Shown here: positions 26,608-31,922 of the stretch, piece after piece
How positions within the stretch are numbered: position 1 is the stretch's first letter
How the letters are laid out: the number at the start of each line of letters is the position of its first letter
NCBI GenBank assembly: GCA_029261395.1
Contig: JAJDBJ010000030.1
Location: 1-64,000 of the forward strand
Direction of reading: 5' to 3'
DNA length: 64,000 bases
From: Nitrospinaceae bacterium
Lineage (GTDB): Bacteria > Nitrospinota > Nitrospinia > Nitrospinales > Nitrospinaceae
Notes under the pieces: generated by a model
The model's input: the letters and a program-made list of their open reading frames with translations, nothing else
Database searches by the model: none
Told to the model about the DNA's origin: nothing
Translations under genes and position numbers: made by a program

Positions 26608-28731
26608 TTAACGCTTATTTTTTGATACTGGAGACAGGTCGATCTGTTTTTTGGAGATGTCGACGCGGGTGACGCGCACTCGCATGGGATCGCCGATGCG
26701 GTAGGTCTTATGTTTGTGCTGGCCTTTCAACATGTGCTCGTGTTCATAGAACACATAATAGTCGTCTCCCAAGCTGGAAATGTGGATCAGGCCTTCGACA
26801 AACACCTCGTCCAGTTCCACGAACAGTCCGAAACCGGTGACTGATGAAACATGGCCGGAATATTCTTTCCCCACCTTGTCGGCCATGAACTGCGCCCGCC
26901 GCAGGTTGGCGACTTCGCGCTCCACTTCCACTGCCTTGATCTCCCTCATGCTGGATTGTTCGGCCTGCTCTTTGCTTTTAGGCAGAAGTTTTTTCCGCTC
27001 CTGCTGGGTGACTTTCTTTTTAGCGAGAAAGGCTTTGATCATCCGGTGCGTTGCCAGATCCGGGTAACGGCGGATGGGCGATGTGAAATGCGTGTAGTGC
27101 TCGAACCCGAGACAGAAATGCCCCGGATCTTTTTCCGAGTACACCGCTTTTTTTAGAGAACGCAACAGCAACATGTTGAGGGTCCGTTCTTGTGCATGGC
27201 CACGCGCGCGGGTCAGCAGGTTTTGCAGGTGACTCGATTGCACTTCACGCAGGTTCGGCAGTCGAAACCCGATGTCCTTGATGAATTCCTGGAAGCGGTG
27301 CAGTTTGTCCTGGTCTGGCGGTTCGTGGATGCGATGAATCCCCGGTAGATTTTTTTTATGCAGATGCTCGGCCACCACCCGGTTGGCCGCCAGCATGAAT
27401 TCCTCGATCAACTCATGCGCCACGTTGTGTTCCGCCTTCACGATATTCTCAACCTGGCCTTTGGCGTTCATCACAATGAACGGCTCCGGGATGTTGAAAT
27501 CGACACTGCCCTCCTGAAACCGGCGCTTGCGCAATAGTTGGCTGAGTTCGAACATGTTCTGCAGTACCGGCAGAGCATCCGTGTATTTTTTTTCGACGGA
27601 CTTGGATTCCAGCATCTCCGCCACCTGGTTGTAAGTGAACCGGAATTTACTTTTGATGACGGAATCGAAAATCTCGTAGTTCAGTACGTTGCCTTGTTTG
27701 TCAAAGGTGATCGACGCACTCAGCGTCAGGCGCTCCTGTCGCGGCTTGAGACTGCACATCTCATTGGACAATTCGAACGGCAGCATCGGGATCACCCCAT
27801 CCGCGTAATAGATGCTGGTGCCGCGTTCCAATGCCTCTTTGTCGAGCGGGCTGTTTTCCGTCACGTAATGGCTGACATCGGCGATATGAACTCCCAAGAC
27901 GTAACCGGTCTCGGTGGTTTCGAGTGACACCGCGTCGTCGAAGTCCTTGGCGCTTTCGCCGTCGATGGTGAAAATCATTTCGCCGGTGAGGTTGCGTCTC
28001 TGTTTCTTTTCGCGGTCGCTGACAGTCCCGTGAATTTTTTCCACCTGCTTCTGGACTTTGGGCGAAAAATCCTGACGCACGCCGAATTTGTGAATGATGG
28101 AGCGCAGTTCGACTTCCGGATCGTTGGCGTCGCCCAGCACTTTGATGACGCGTCCGACGGGCGGGTGGTGTTTTGTGGGATAAGTGATGATTTCCACCGA
28201 GACCAGCTGTCCCGGCTTCGCGCCTTTCTTTTCTTTGCCGGGCACGAACACATCCTGGAAATATTTGTGCTCGGAGGGGATCACCCAGCCGTCGCGGTTC
28301 AAGGATTCAAACAGTCCTACCAGCGTGGTGGTGCGGCGTTCGAGAATGCGGACGATCCGCCCCTCCTGCCGCCCGATGCGTTGTGAGTGTGATTCGACGC
28401 GCACCAGGACGTGATCGTTGTGCATGGCACCGCCCAGTTTCTGCCGACCGATGTAAATGTCGTTCGAATCGTCTTCGGTGATGACAAAGCCATAGCCGTC
28501 CGGATGACCCGACAGCACACCGGGGATCAGGTTCATCTCATCGGGCAGGCCGTAACGGCCGCCGCGCAGTTTGACCACCGAACCCTCGCTGGCCATCTCC
28601 TTGAGCTGGGCGCGGAACTCCCGCCGCTGGTCTTCGGGGATGCTCAGCAGGTGCATGAGTTCCGAAAACTTCATGGGCCGGTTGGTTTTGGCGCGCAGGA
28701 GTTTTAATATTTTTGATTCAGAGAGATCCAT
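26608..28731 (-). CDS. rnr: Ribonuclease R
   Basis: A 707-residue RNase R (RNB family), a 3'-5' exoribonuclease that degrades structured RNA. It has an N-terminal winged-helix region, cold-shock-like OB domains (GRYGLPDEMNLIPGVLSGHPDGYGFV), the RNB catalytic domain with TIDGESAKDFDDAVSLE and the GVIPMLPFELSNEMCSLKP segment, and a C-terminal S1 domain (VGKEYSGHVSSVTGFGLFVELDEVFVEGLIHIS). It lacks the long Lys-rich tail of E. coli RNase R. It is divergent from pheT, with its own promoter. Confidence 0.94.
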   Translation of the reverse strand: MDLSESKILKLLRAKTNRPMKFSELMHLLSIPEDQRREFRAQLKEMASEGSVVKLRGGRYGLPDEMNLIPGVLSGHPDGYGFVITEDDSNDIYIGRQKLGGAMHNDHVLVRVESHSQRIGRQEGRIVRILERRTTTLVGLFESLNRDGWVIPSEHKYFQDVFVPGKEKKGAKPGQLVSVEIITYPTKHHPPVGRVIKVLGDANDPEVELRSIIHKFGVRQDFSPKVQKQVEKIHGTVSDREKKQRRNLTGEMIFTIDGESAKDFDDAVSLETTETGYVLGVHIADVSHYVTENSPLDKEALERGTSIYYADGVIPMLPFELSNEMCSLKPRQERLTLSASITFDKQGNVLNYEIFDSVIKSKFRFTYNQVAEMLESKSVEKKYTDALPVLQNMFELSQLLRKRRFQEGSVDFNIPEPFIVMNAKGQVENIVKAEHNVAHELIEEFMLAANRVVAEHLHKKNLPGIHRIHEPPDQDKLHRFQEFIKDIGFRLPNLREVQSSHLQNLLTRARGHAQERTLNMLLLRSLKKAVYSEKDPGHFCLGFEHYTHFTSPIRRYPDLATHRMIKAFLAKKKVTQQERKKLLPKSKEQAEQSSMREIKAVEVEREVANLRRAQFMADKVGKEYSGHVSSVTGFGLFVELDEVFVEGLIHISSLGDDYYVFYEHEHMLKGQHKHKTYRIGDPMRVRVTRVDISKKQIDLSPVSKNKR

Positions 28732-28770
28732 AAATTTATCGAGAGGCCTTTAAACGTGTTTCATTTATAC

Positions 28771-28798
28771 ATTATATAGAAATATTGTTGCTGGTAAA
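28771..28798 (-). promoter_or_regulatory. Promoter of rnr
   Basis: On the minus strand TTTACC (28793-28798) and a perfect TATAAT (28771-28776) are 16 bases apart, about 40 bases before the rnr start. Confidence 0.5.
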
Positions 28799-28832
28799 GT
28801 ATTGGTGGGGATAGGGGAGGTCGGTCACCGTT

Positions 28833-28861
28833 TTGATTTTTCCCGGAAGTTCACCTATAAT
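28833..28861 (+). promoter_or_regulatory. Promoter of pheT
   Basis: TTGATT (28833-28838) and a perfect TATAAT (28856-28861) are 17 bases apart. It lies about 40 bases before the ATG at 28901, which excludes the earlier in-frame start at 28802 and shows that pheT has its own promoter. Confidence 0.68.
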
Positions 28862-28900
28862 CCTGTTTCTATTATACAAGGTATTTTCCCAAGGAATGAA

Positions 28901-30994
28901 ATGAAGATTGAACTCGACTGGCTGAAAAACTACATCGACCACGGTCTATCCGTACAAAAACTAAGCGATTTGCTCACCATGGGCGGTTTGGAAATTGAGG
29001 GCCAGGAGTCGGTTGACCTGGGAAATGGCAAAACCACCGAGGTGGTCGAGTTGAACGTGACGCCCAATCGCGGCTACTGTCTGAGCCATATCGGTGTGGC
29101 ACGTGAAGTGGGGGCGATGATTCATAAAGCCTGCAAACTGCCCGCGCCCGAAAAGCAATTGACCAAGGCCATGGGCTCGGTCCCCGTGAAGAAGAGAATC
29201 ACCGTGGTCAACGAGGAGCCGGAGCTGTGTCCGCGTTACACCGCGATGGTCATCGAGAACGTAAAACCGGGACCCTCTCCGCAATGGTTGCAAGACCGGT
29301 TGAAGGCCATCGGCCTGCGCCCCATCAATAATATCGTCGATATCACCAATTTCGTCATGATGGAGTACGGTCAGCCCCTGCACGCGTTTGATAGCGCACG
29401 GCTGGCGGGAGAGGAAATAGTCATCCGTCGCGCCCGCAAGGGAGAACCGTTCACTGCGCTAGACGGCACCGAGTTGAAACTGGGAACCGATGCGCTGGTG
29501 ATCGCCGATGCCGACAAGCCGGTAGCGCTGGCGGGCATCATGGGCGGCGTCAACAGTCAGGTGGACGAGTCCACGCAGACAGTGGTTTTGGAGAGCGCCA
29601 GTTTTGATCCGGTGGCGGTGCGCAAGGCCTCGAAAAAATACGGCCTGCGTTCCGACTCGTCCTACCGTTTCGAGCGGGGGGTGGATGTCGATGCAGTGGA
29701 AACGGCCTCCAGTCGGGCGGCGTTGTTGATCCAGGAGTTGGCGGGGGGTGACATCTGCAAAGGCCGGATCAATATTTATTTTCGGTCCCACAAACCCAAT
29801 CGGTTTGACTTCCGTATTTCACGCACCAATCAGGTGCTGGGCACCCAACTGAGCGCCTCAACGATTATGAAATACCTGAAAGGCCTGGGTATTACGGTGG
29901 TGAAGGAAAAAAAGGCGAAAGAATGCTATCAGGTTGAAGCGCCGTCATCCCGTCCCACGTTGACGCGCGAGATTGATTTGATCGAAGAGGTGGCCCGCCT
30001 TGATGGATATGAGGGCGTGGCGATTTCTCATCCGGTGGCTTCGGTGAGTCCGGTGCGGTTTTCCAAAATTCAAACCGCCGTCCGGCAGAGTAAGGAAGTC
30101 CTGCGCAACCTCGGGTATTCGGAGGCGATCAACTACAGCTTTATCGAAGGTGACTGGGCTCAGGGGTTTCTGGATACGTTCGGCGGTCAGCAGCCGGCAG
30201 TGGTTCGGCTCGATAATCCGATCAGTTCGGACATGGATACCATGCGTCCCAGCCTTTTACCGGGATTGATCAAATCCGCCGCACGCAATATCAACCGGGG
30301 ACAGAAGAACCTGCAGTTGTTCGAGCAGGGCCATATTTTTTTCGGCAAGAAAGGCAAGGGTTCTCACGAAATTGCATGCCTCGCCGCGCTGGCGACCGGG
30401 CCTTACCCCAACAGCGTGTGGAAGGACAGCGGAAAGCCATTTGACTTTTACGATTTGAAAGGCGCGTTGGAGACTCTGGCCAACCATTTTCAGGTGGTAT
30501 TGGAGTATCGTCCTGCCAACCGCAGTTTTCTGGACTCCGGGCAATCGGCGGATGCTTTTGCCGGGGGCAAGTGCATTGCTTATCTCGGTCGATTGGACCC
30601 GGCCCTGGCCACCCGCTGGGAGTTAAGCCCAAATATGTACGTTTTCGAGTTGAATATGGAAGCCTTGGCCGCGGCGATTACGGATCGGCCCCGTTTTCAG
30701 CCAATTCCCAAGTATCCAGAGACTTACCGGGATATTTCCATATTGGTGGACCAGACGGTCCAGGCCCAGACCATAGCAGATCTGATTCGCCAGAGCAGTG
30801 GCCCCCTGATCCGCCGGGTGGAATTGTACGATCAATACCAGGGCAAAAAACTGCCTTCCGGCAAGAAGAGCCTGACATTTGCCCTGTCTTTTCAATCACC
30901 TGAAAAAACCCTGACCGATGAGGAAGTGAATCCCATTTTTACGAAAATCGTGGGAAACCTTTCAGAACAGCTGGGAGCGGCTCTCCGCGAGTAA
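28901..30994 (+). CDS. pheT: Phenylalanyl-tRNA synthetase beta subunit lacking the tRNA-binding domain
   Basis: A 697-residue PheT, the beta subunit that supports aminoacylation and edits Tyr-tRNA(Phe). The B1 start (MKIELDWLKNYIDHGLS), B3/B4 editing region (CPRYTAMVIENVKPGPSPQW, VDITNFVMMEYGQPLHAFD), B5 and the C-terminal FDX anticodon domain (KYPETYRDISILVDQTV) are present. Between MGGLEIEGQESV and ELNVTPNRGYCLSHIGVARE about 100 residues are missing; that gap corresponds exactly to the EMAP/YtpR-like tRNA-binding OB domain of the usual 795-residue protein. AAGGA precedes the ATG. pheS, normally just upstream, is absent; the upstream gene is divergent rnr. Confidence 0.93.
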   Translation: MKIELDWLKNYIDHGLSVQKLSDLLTMGGLEIEGQESVDLGNGKTTEVVELNVTPNRGYCLSHIGVAREVGAMIHKACKLPAPEKQLTKAMGSVPVKKRITVVNEEPELCPRYTAMVIENVKPGPSPQWLQDRLKAIGLRPINNIVDITNFVMMEYGQPLHAFDSARLAGEEIVIRRARKGEPFTALDGTELKLGTDALVIADADKPVALAGIMGGVNSQVDESTQTVVLESASFDPVAVRKASKKYGLRSDSSYRFERGVDVDAVETASSRAALLIQELAGGDICKGRINIYFRSHKPNRFDFRISRTNQVLGTQLSASTIMKYLKGLGITVVKEKKAKECYQVEAPSSRPTLTREIDLIEEVARLDGYEGVAISHPVASVSPVRFSKIQTAVRQSKEVLRNLGYSEAINYSFIEGDWAQGFLDTFGGQQPAVVRLDNPISSDMDTMRPSLLPGLIKSAARNINRGQKNLQLFEQGHIFFGKKGKGSHEIACLAALATGPYPNSVWKDSGKPFDFYDLKGALETLANHFQVVLEYRPANRSFLDSGQSADAFAGGKCIAYLGRLDPALATRWELSPNMYVFELNMEALAAAITDRPRFQPIPKYPETYRDISILVDQTVQAQTIADLIRQSSGPLIRRVELYDQYQGKKLPSGKKSLTFALSFQSPEKTLTDEEVNPIFTKIVGNLSEQLGAALRE

Positions 30995-31740: not shown

Positions 31741-31922
31741 GTGCTTCCCTGTGGTGCTTGAGTATAAGATCCATTCTTGAGCCAACATTTGAATCAGGGG
31801 TCGAAACTAGCTGTGGTGTGCATGCCTCCTCGGAGGAAGCCTAAAACAGTATACGGAGATCCCACCTGTCCTTGGCAGGTTCAAGAAATGATTTTTGCAC
31901 GGCATTCGCGGGGAAGCATTTT
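31741..31922 (+). ncRNA. ssrS: 6S RNA
   Basis: 6S RNA mimics an open promoter and holds sigma-70 RNA polymerase. The ends pair as a closing stem (TGCTTCCC at 31742-31749 with GGGAAGCA at 31911-31918), and a T run follows (31919-31926). The interior resembles E. coli 6S in order: TTGAGCC, GTGTGCATGCC, CCTCGGAGGAAGCCTAAAAC, and a late CCTGTCCTTGGCAGG hairpin. Position between zapA and the 5-formyl-THF cyclo-ligase gene is the conserved one. Ends are good to within a few bases. Confidence 0.9.

Follow-up and report, generated by a model that had tools for sequence, protein, structure and literature searches.

A bacterial-type phenylalanine--tRNA ligase beta subunit without the B2 domain in Nitrospinota and in other bacterial lineages

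The pheT gene of a Nitrospinaceae bacterium (28901-30994, forward strand, in the 64,000-nucleotide stretch of DNA analysed here, called the window) codes for a phenylalanine--tRNA ligase beta subunit of 697 aa. This protein is a true bacterial PheT minus one usual domain, the EMAP/OB-fold domain B2. Since B2 is lacking from the bacterial-type PheTs of all Nitrospinota and from those of about one-sixth of the other families sampled, the B2-less PheT is a recurrent natural variant, neither an error nor a local oddity. We consider it very probable that it belongs to an ordinary bacterial-type PheRS, predicted to be an (alpha-beta)2 enzyme, that does without a dispensable appended domain.

The translation of the gene is uninterrupted, and an AAGGA motif resembling a ribosome-binding site lies just 5' of the start. 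The protein matches TIGR00472 (bacterial PheT) with 639.5 bits, for a cut-off of 402.65; the match begins only at position 158 of the 798 positions of the model. All parts lie on the forward strand. On the basis of the alignment with full-length PheT, the first half of domain B1 (residues 1-35, MKIELDWLKNYI...GLEIEGQ) occupies 29005 and the positions before it, from 28901. It is followed by a 12-residue link, ESVDLGNGKTTE (29006-29041), at the site of B2 in full-length PheT, and by the second half of B1, beginning VVELNVTPNRGYCLSHIGVARE (29042-29200), both placed by the alignment and the AlphaFold model. Pfam then recognizes the remaining domains in the expected bacterial order: the B3/4 editing domain (PF03483, residues 110-282, 29228-29746), B5 (PF03484, residues 303-370, 29807-30010), the catalytic-like module CLM, or B6/B7 (PF17759, residues 378-586, 30032-30658), and B8, the ferredoxin-fold anticodon-binding domain FDX-ACB (PF03147, 110.9 bits, residues 603-696, 30707-30988).

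As for the surroundings of the gene, pheT is divergent from an RNase R-like gene of 707 aa across 28731-28901. A 6S/SsrS RNA (RF00013, 87 bits) is found at 31743-31918 on the forward strand, with small frames resembling ZapB and ZapA on its 5' side and a frame resembling 5-formyltetrahydrofolate cyclo-ligase on its 3' side (names of the proteins assigned by eye).

A Pfam search found no PF01588 (B2, EMAP/OB) in the window PheT; with the same library, the domain was found in the PheTs of E. coli (residues 45-145) and of a member of the Syntrophaceae (residues 45-144). In the alignment, the gap falls after GLEIEGQ and before VVELNVTPNR, where the window PheT has 12 residues and full-length PheTs have about 116-129 (four lower values among the latter come from rows trimmed at the N-terminus), a net shortfall of about 105-117 residues. 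The first-pass annotation had claimed that some 100 residues were missing, that they were exactly B2 and that the frame was intact; the alignment, the Pfam search and the 697-residue translation bear this out. The insertion of B2 in B1 is usual for bacterial PheT, is not seen in the window PheT and is evidently not obligatory.

A structure model was computed with AlphaFold2 from 52 aligned sequences, among which B1 residues T54, N56, R57 and G65 are invariant. B1 is predicted with pLDDT values of 86-94. Strands are modelled at residues 31-41 and 44-52, and the two residues that separate them make a turn precisely at the B2 junction. Given this modelled turn, the strands of B1 between which B2 is normally inserted would form a plain hairpin, and B1 would be one contiguous piece. 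The overall pTM is 0.57 and superposition of the whole chain on solved PheTs gives a TM of about 0.5; whole-model superposition is therefore unreliable for domain arrangement, and we draw nothing from the model on the placement of the domains in the tetramer.

In the phylum Nitrospinota, B2 has long been absent, and its absence is fixed. Alignment with PheTs of the same phylum, which the first-pass annotation had proposed, revealed no B2 in any bacterial-type PheT of the phylum whose N-terminus is assembled (more than 50 genomes of seven families, single-contig genomes included); B2 is present in the named outgroups and in E. coli. The short PheTs are 52-88% identical to that of the window within the order and 37-42% identical in deeper families. 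Five outlying Nitrospinota genomes carry PheT frames of 677-713 aa, or pieces agreeing with that. The exceptions in the phylum are genomes without any PheT match (e.g. G064) and the genome G013 (L120), which is of the same order and another family. In G013, an archaeal-type PheT without B8 (TIGR00471, 480.9 bits) replaces the bacterial form, which suggests replacement by gene transfer; a similar replacement of PheT is described for some spirochaetes (PMC3191353).

Outside the phylum we analysed 131 genomes, no two of them from one family; the sampling probably comes close to one genome per phylum. Judged by length and contiguous match, 23 of them (about one in six families) have a B2-less PheT. 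Residue counts confirmed this state in 22 lineages; the 23rd, G071, was judged from the match position only. In the 22 counted lineages the linkers measure 5-12 residues, with one of 26, compared with about 120 in full-length rows, and 14 have a linker of exactly 7. An independent search detected PF01588 in four full-length control PheTs and in none of the PheTs of these outside B2-less genomes. The phylum of G137, with 139 genomes in around 55 families, is B2-less nearly throughout; the exception is family f182, in which the three members examined (L189, L190 and L191) have 143-147 residues between the B1 halves. The f182 PheTs are placed nearer to B2-bearing PheTs from other phyla, and it is possible that B2 was re-acquired there by transfer. 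The phyla of G095 and G177 are represented by only three and two genomes, respectively, all with a short PheT. The unusually long linker of 26 residues belongs to G095 (L142), whose two phylum mates are also B2-less, and is possibly a remnant of B2. Domain databases probably show the B2-less architecture already; in the literature searched, we found no paper on B2-less PheT or on Nitrospina PheT, and no description of the recurrent architecture.

The history of the domain was analysed with trees built with the B2 columns left out. In the tree of 80 rows, B2-less and B2-bearing PheTs are intermixed, with 20 changes, at least six of which are forced by strongly supported (starred) branches. The tree of 37 rows has 12 changes, and a single change is seen in none of 200 bootstrap trees. 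The deep branches of the PheT tree are short, and linker lengths resemble one another. Repeated loss of B2 is the more likely history; one ancient gain or loss of B2 combined with gene transfer is less likely. A single split of B2-less from B2-bearing PheTs has a log-likelihood 54.75 lower on the 80 rows and an AU p of 0.121, and because this test leaves the single split standing, we do not claim independent losses as proven.

It is also conceivable, though we think it improbable, that bacterial PheT originally had no B2 and acquired it by a single, later insertion in B1; the equally doubtful corollary is that Nitrospinota and some twenty other lineages have kept the pre-insertion state. The AU result accords with such a history, but the best trees of both sizes, with the 20 and 12 changes given above, mix the two types. 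The stereotyped junction, with its 7-residue linker in 14 of 22 lineages, would likewise fit a shared ancestral state, but linkers of equal length could also have arisen by convergence on the length best suited to closing the B1 hairpin. The archaeal-type PheT, represented by one protein, also has no PF01588. The B2-bearing f182 in the G137 phylum does not settle the direction of the change. Were B2 a later insertion, the eight-domain beta subunit of the textbooks would be a derived state in bacteria, not the ancestral one.

In more than 40 Nitrospinales genomes, no pheS was found within 1-4 kb upstream of pheT. Four deeper members of the class, B2-less as well, have pheS and pheT adjacent, and the absence of B2 therefore appears to be older than the separation of the two genes. 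A tie between the loss of B2 and this separation finds no support, as pheS and pheT have stayed together in deep Nitrospinota and in most of the other B2-less lineages.

The partners of the window PheT are conventional. PheS, encoded on contig C25, has both the N-terminal coiled-coil arm (PF02912) and the core (PF01409), and the tRNA(Phe) of the genome is of conventional sequence, with a GAA anticodon and A73. In the alignment, the window PheT keeps the equivalents of the editing-site residues that we take to be R244, N254, H265, G318 and E334 in E. coli numbering. The roles of the editing-site residues are taken in part from a review (PMC3275996), in which B2 is called EMAP II-like and B8 is the domain said to touch the anticodon directly. 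In the M. tuberculosis PheRS-tRNA(Phe) complex, the reported contacts are made by the N-terminal arm of PheS (D- and T-loops), by B8 (anticodon and D-loop) and by B6 (D-loop) (PMC12447630); B2 is absent from the contacts listed there, in the prose of this one paper rather than in measured coordinates.

The most economical interpretation is a PheRS that works in the standard way and lacks only an accessory module, because the published contacts omit B2 and because PheS, tRNA(Phe) and the editing residues are conventional. The B2 insertion is absent from B1, where a short turn would join the flanking strands. Binding, charging and proofreading of tRNA(Phe) would proceed as usual via the PheS coiled-coil arm, B8 and B3/4, and, as far as the sequence can tell, charging and editing should be normal. 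The literature searched contained no biochemistry on a bacterial PheRS of the B2-less kind. B2 would then be an accessory module with a dispensable contribution: it may add stability, provide further contacts with nucleic acids or, non-specifically, with tRNA, or serve a purpose outside translation. The first-pass annotation had proposed that the missing domain changes how the enzyme holds tRNA(Phe). This proposal finds no support: the PheS arm, B6 and B8, not B2, make the published contacts, and these parts, like the tRNA itself, are conventional here.

A compensated loss, with tRNA(Phe) held differently or a separate OB-fold protein acting in trans, seems to us unlikely. B2 is a member of the tRNA-binding OB-fold family (PMC11286949), but it is missing from the contact list cited above (PMC12447630), and tRNA(Phe), B8 and the PheS arm are all conventional. 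Some other B2-less lineages do have free-standing PF01588 proteins of about 110-193 aa. In this genome, by contrast, the search for a free-standing B2/YtpR-like protein, also suggested by the first-pass annotation, gave none: the single PF01588 copy is at the C-terminus of MetRS (recognized from sequence). The same appears to be true across the order: 57 of 61 genomes have exactly one PF01588 domain, and the frame that carries it almost always has the size expected of MetRS.

Faulty assembly or binning, or another full-length pheT in the genome, has practically no chance of being the explanation: the genome is fragmented (84 contigs, 97% complete), but a domain search found one B3/4 domain in it, and therefore a single PheT, while dozens of independent assemblies, single-contig genomes included, have the identical architecture, so that the same deletion in all relatives rules out an assembly gap. 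The original view that no sequencing gap is involved thus holds, and neither of the findings that had been named as fatal to it, a second full-length pheT or a part lost in assembly, was encountered.

Reviews present the bacterial PheRS beta subunit as a fixed domain set that includes the EMAP-like B2. The stable, phylum-wide series of B2-less proteins shows that an essential enzyme can do without B2, and these natural B2-less enzymes are ready-made material for learning the role of B2, which is unsettled in the literature found. They also call for caution, as the absence of an OB fold is by itself poor ground for inferring altered tRNA binding. In other respects, the B2-less pheT is an ordinary housekeeping gene.

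Among known systems, the fold of the missing B2 (PF01588) is that of Trbp111, YtpR, CsaA and the C-terminal domain of MetRS, of which only the MetRS copy is present in this genome. The archaeal/eukaryotic PheT (TIGR00471) also lacks PF01588, as seen in the protein from G013; it is, however, another subfamily, without B8, whereas the window PheT has B8 and scores 108.6 bits against the TIGR00471 cut-off of 282.65. The solved PheT chains retrieved by a fold search are 24-31% identical to the window PheT. The closest likeness is to bacterial PheT (TIGR00472) as known from E. coli, Thermus and Mycobacterium tuberculosis: the order B1, B3/4, B5, CLM and B8 is the same, and the difference is one of about 785-835 residues with B2 in these proteins against 697 without B2 here.
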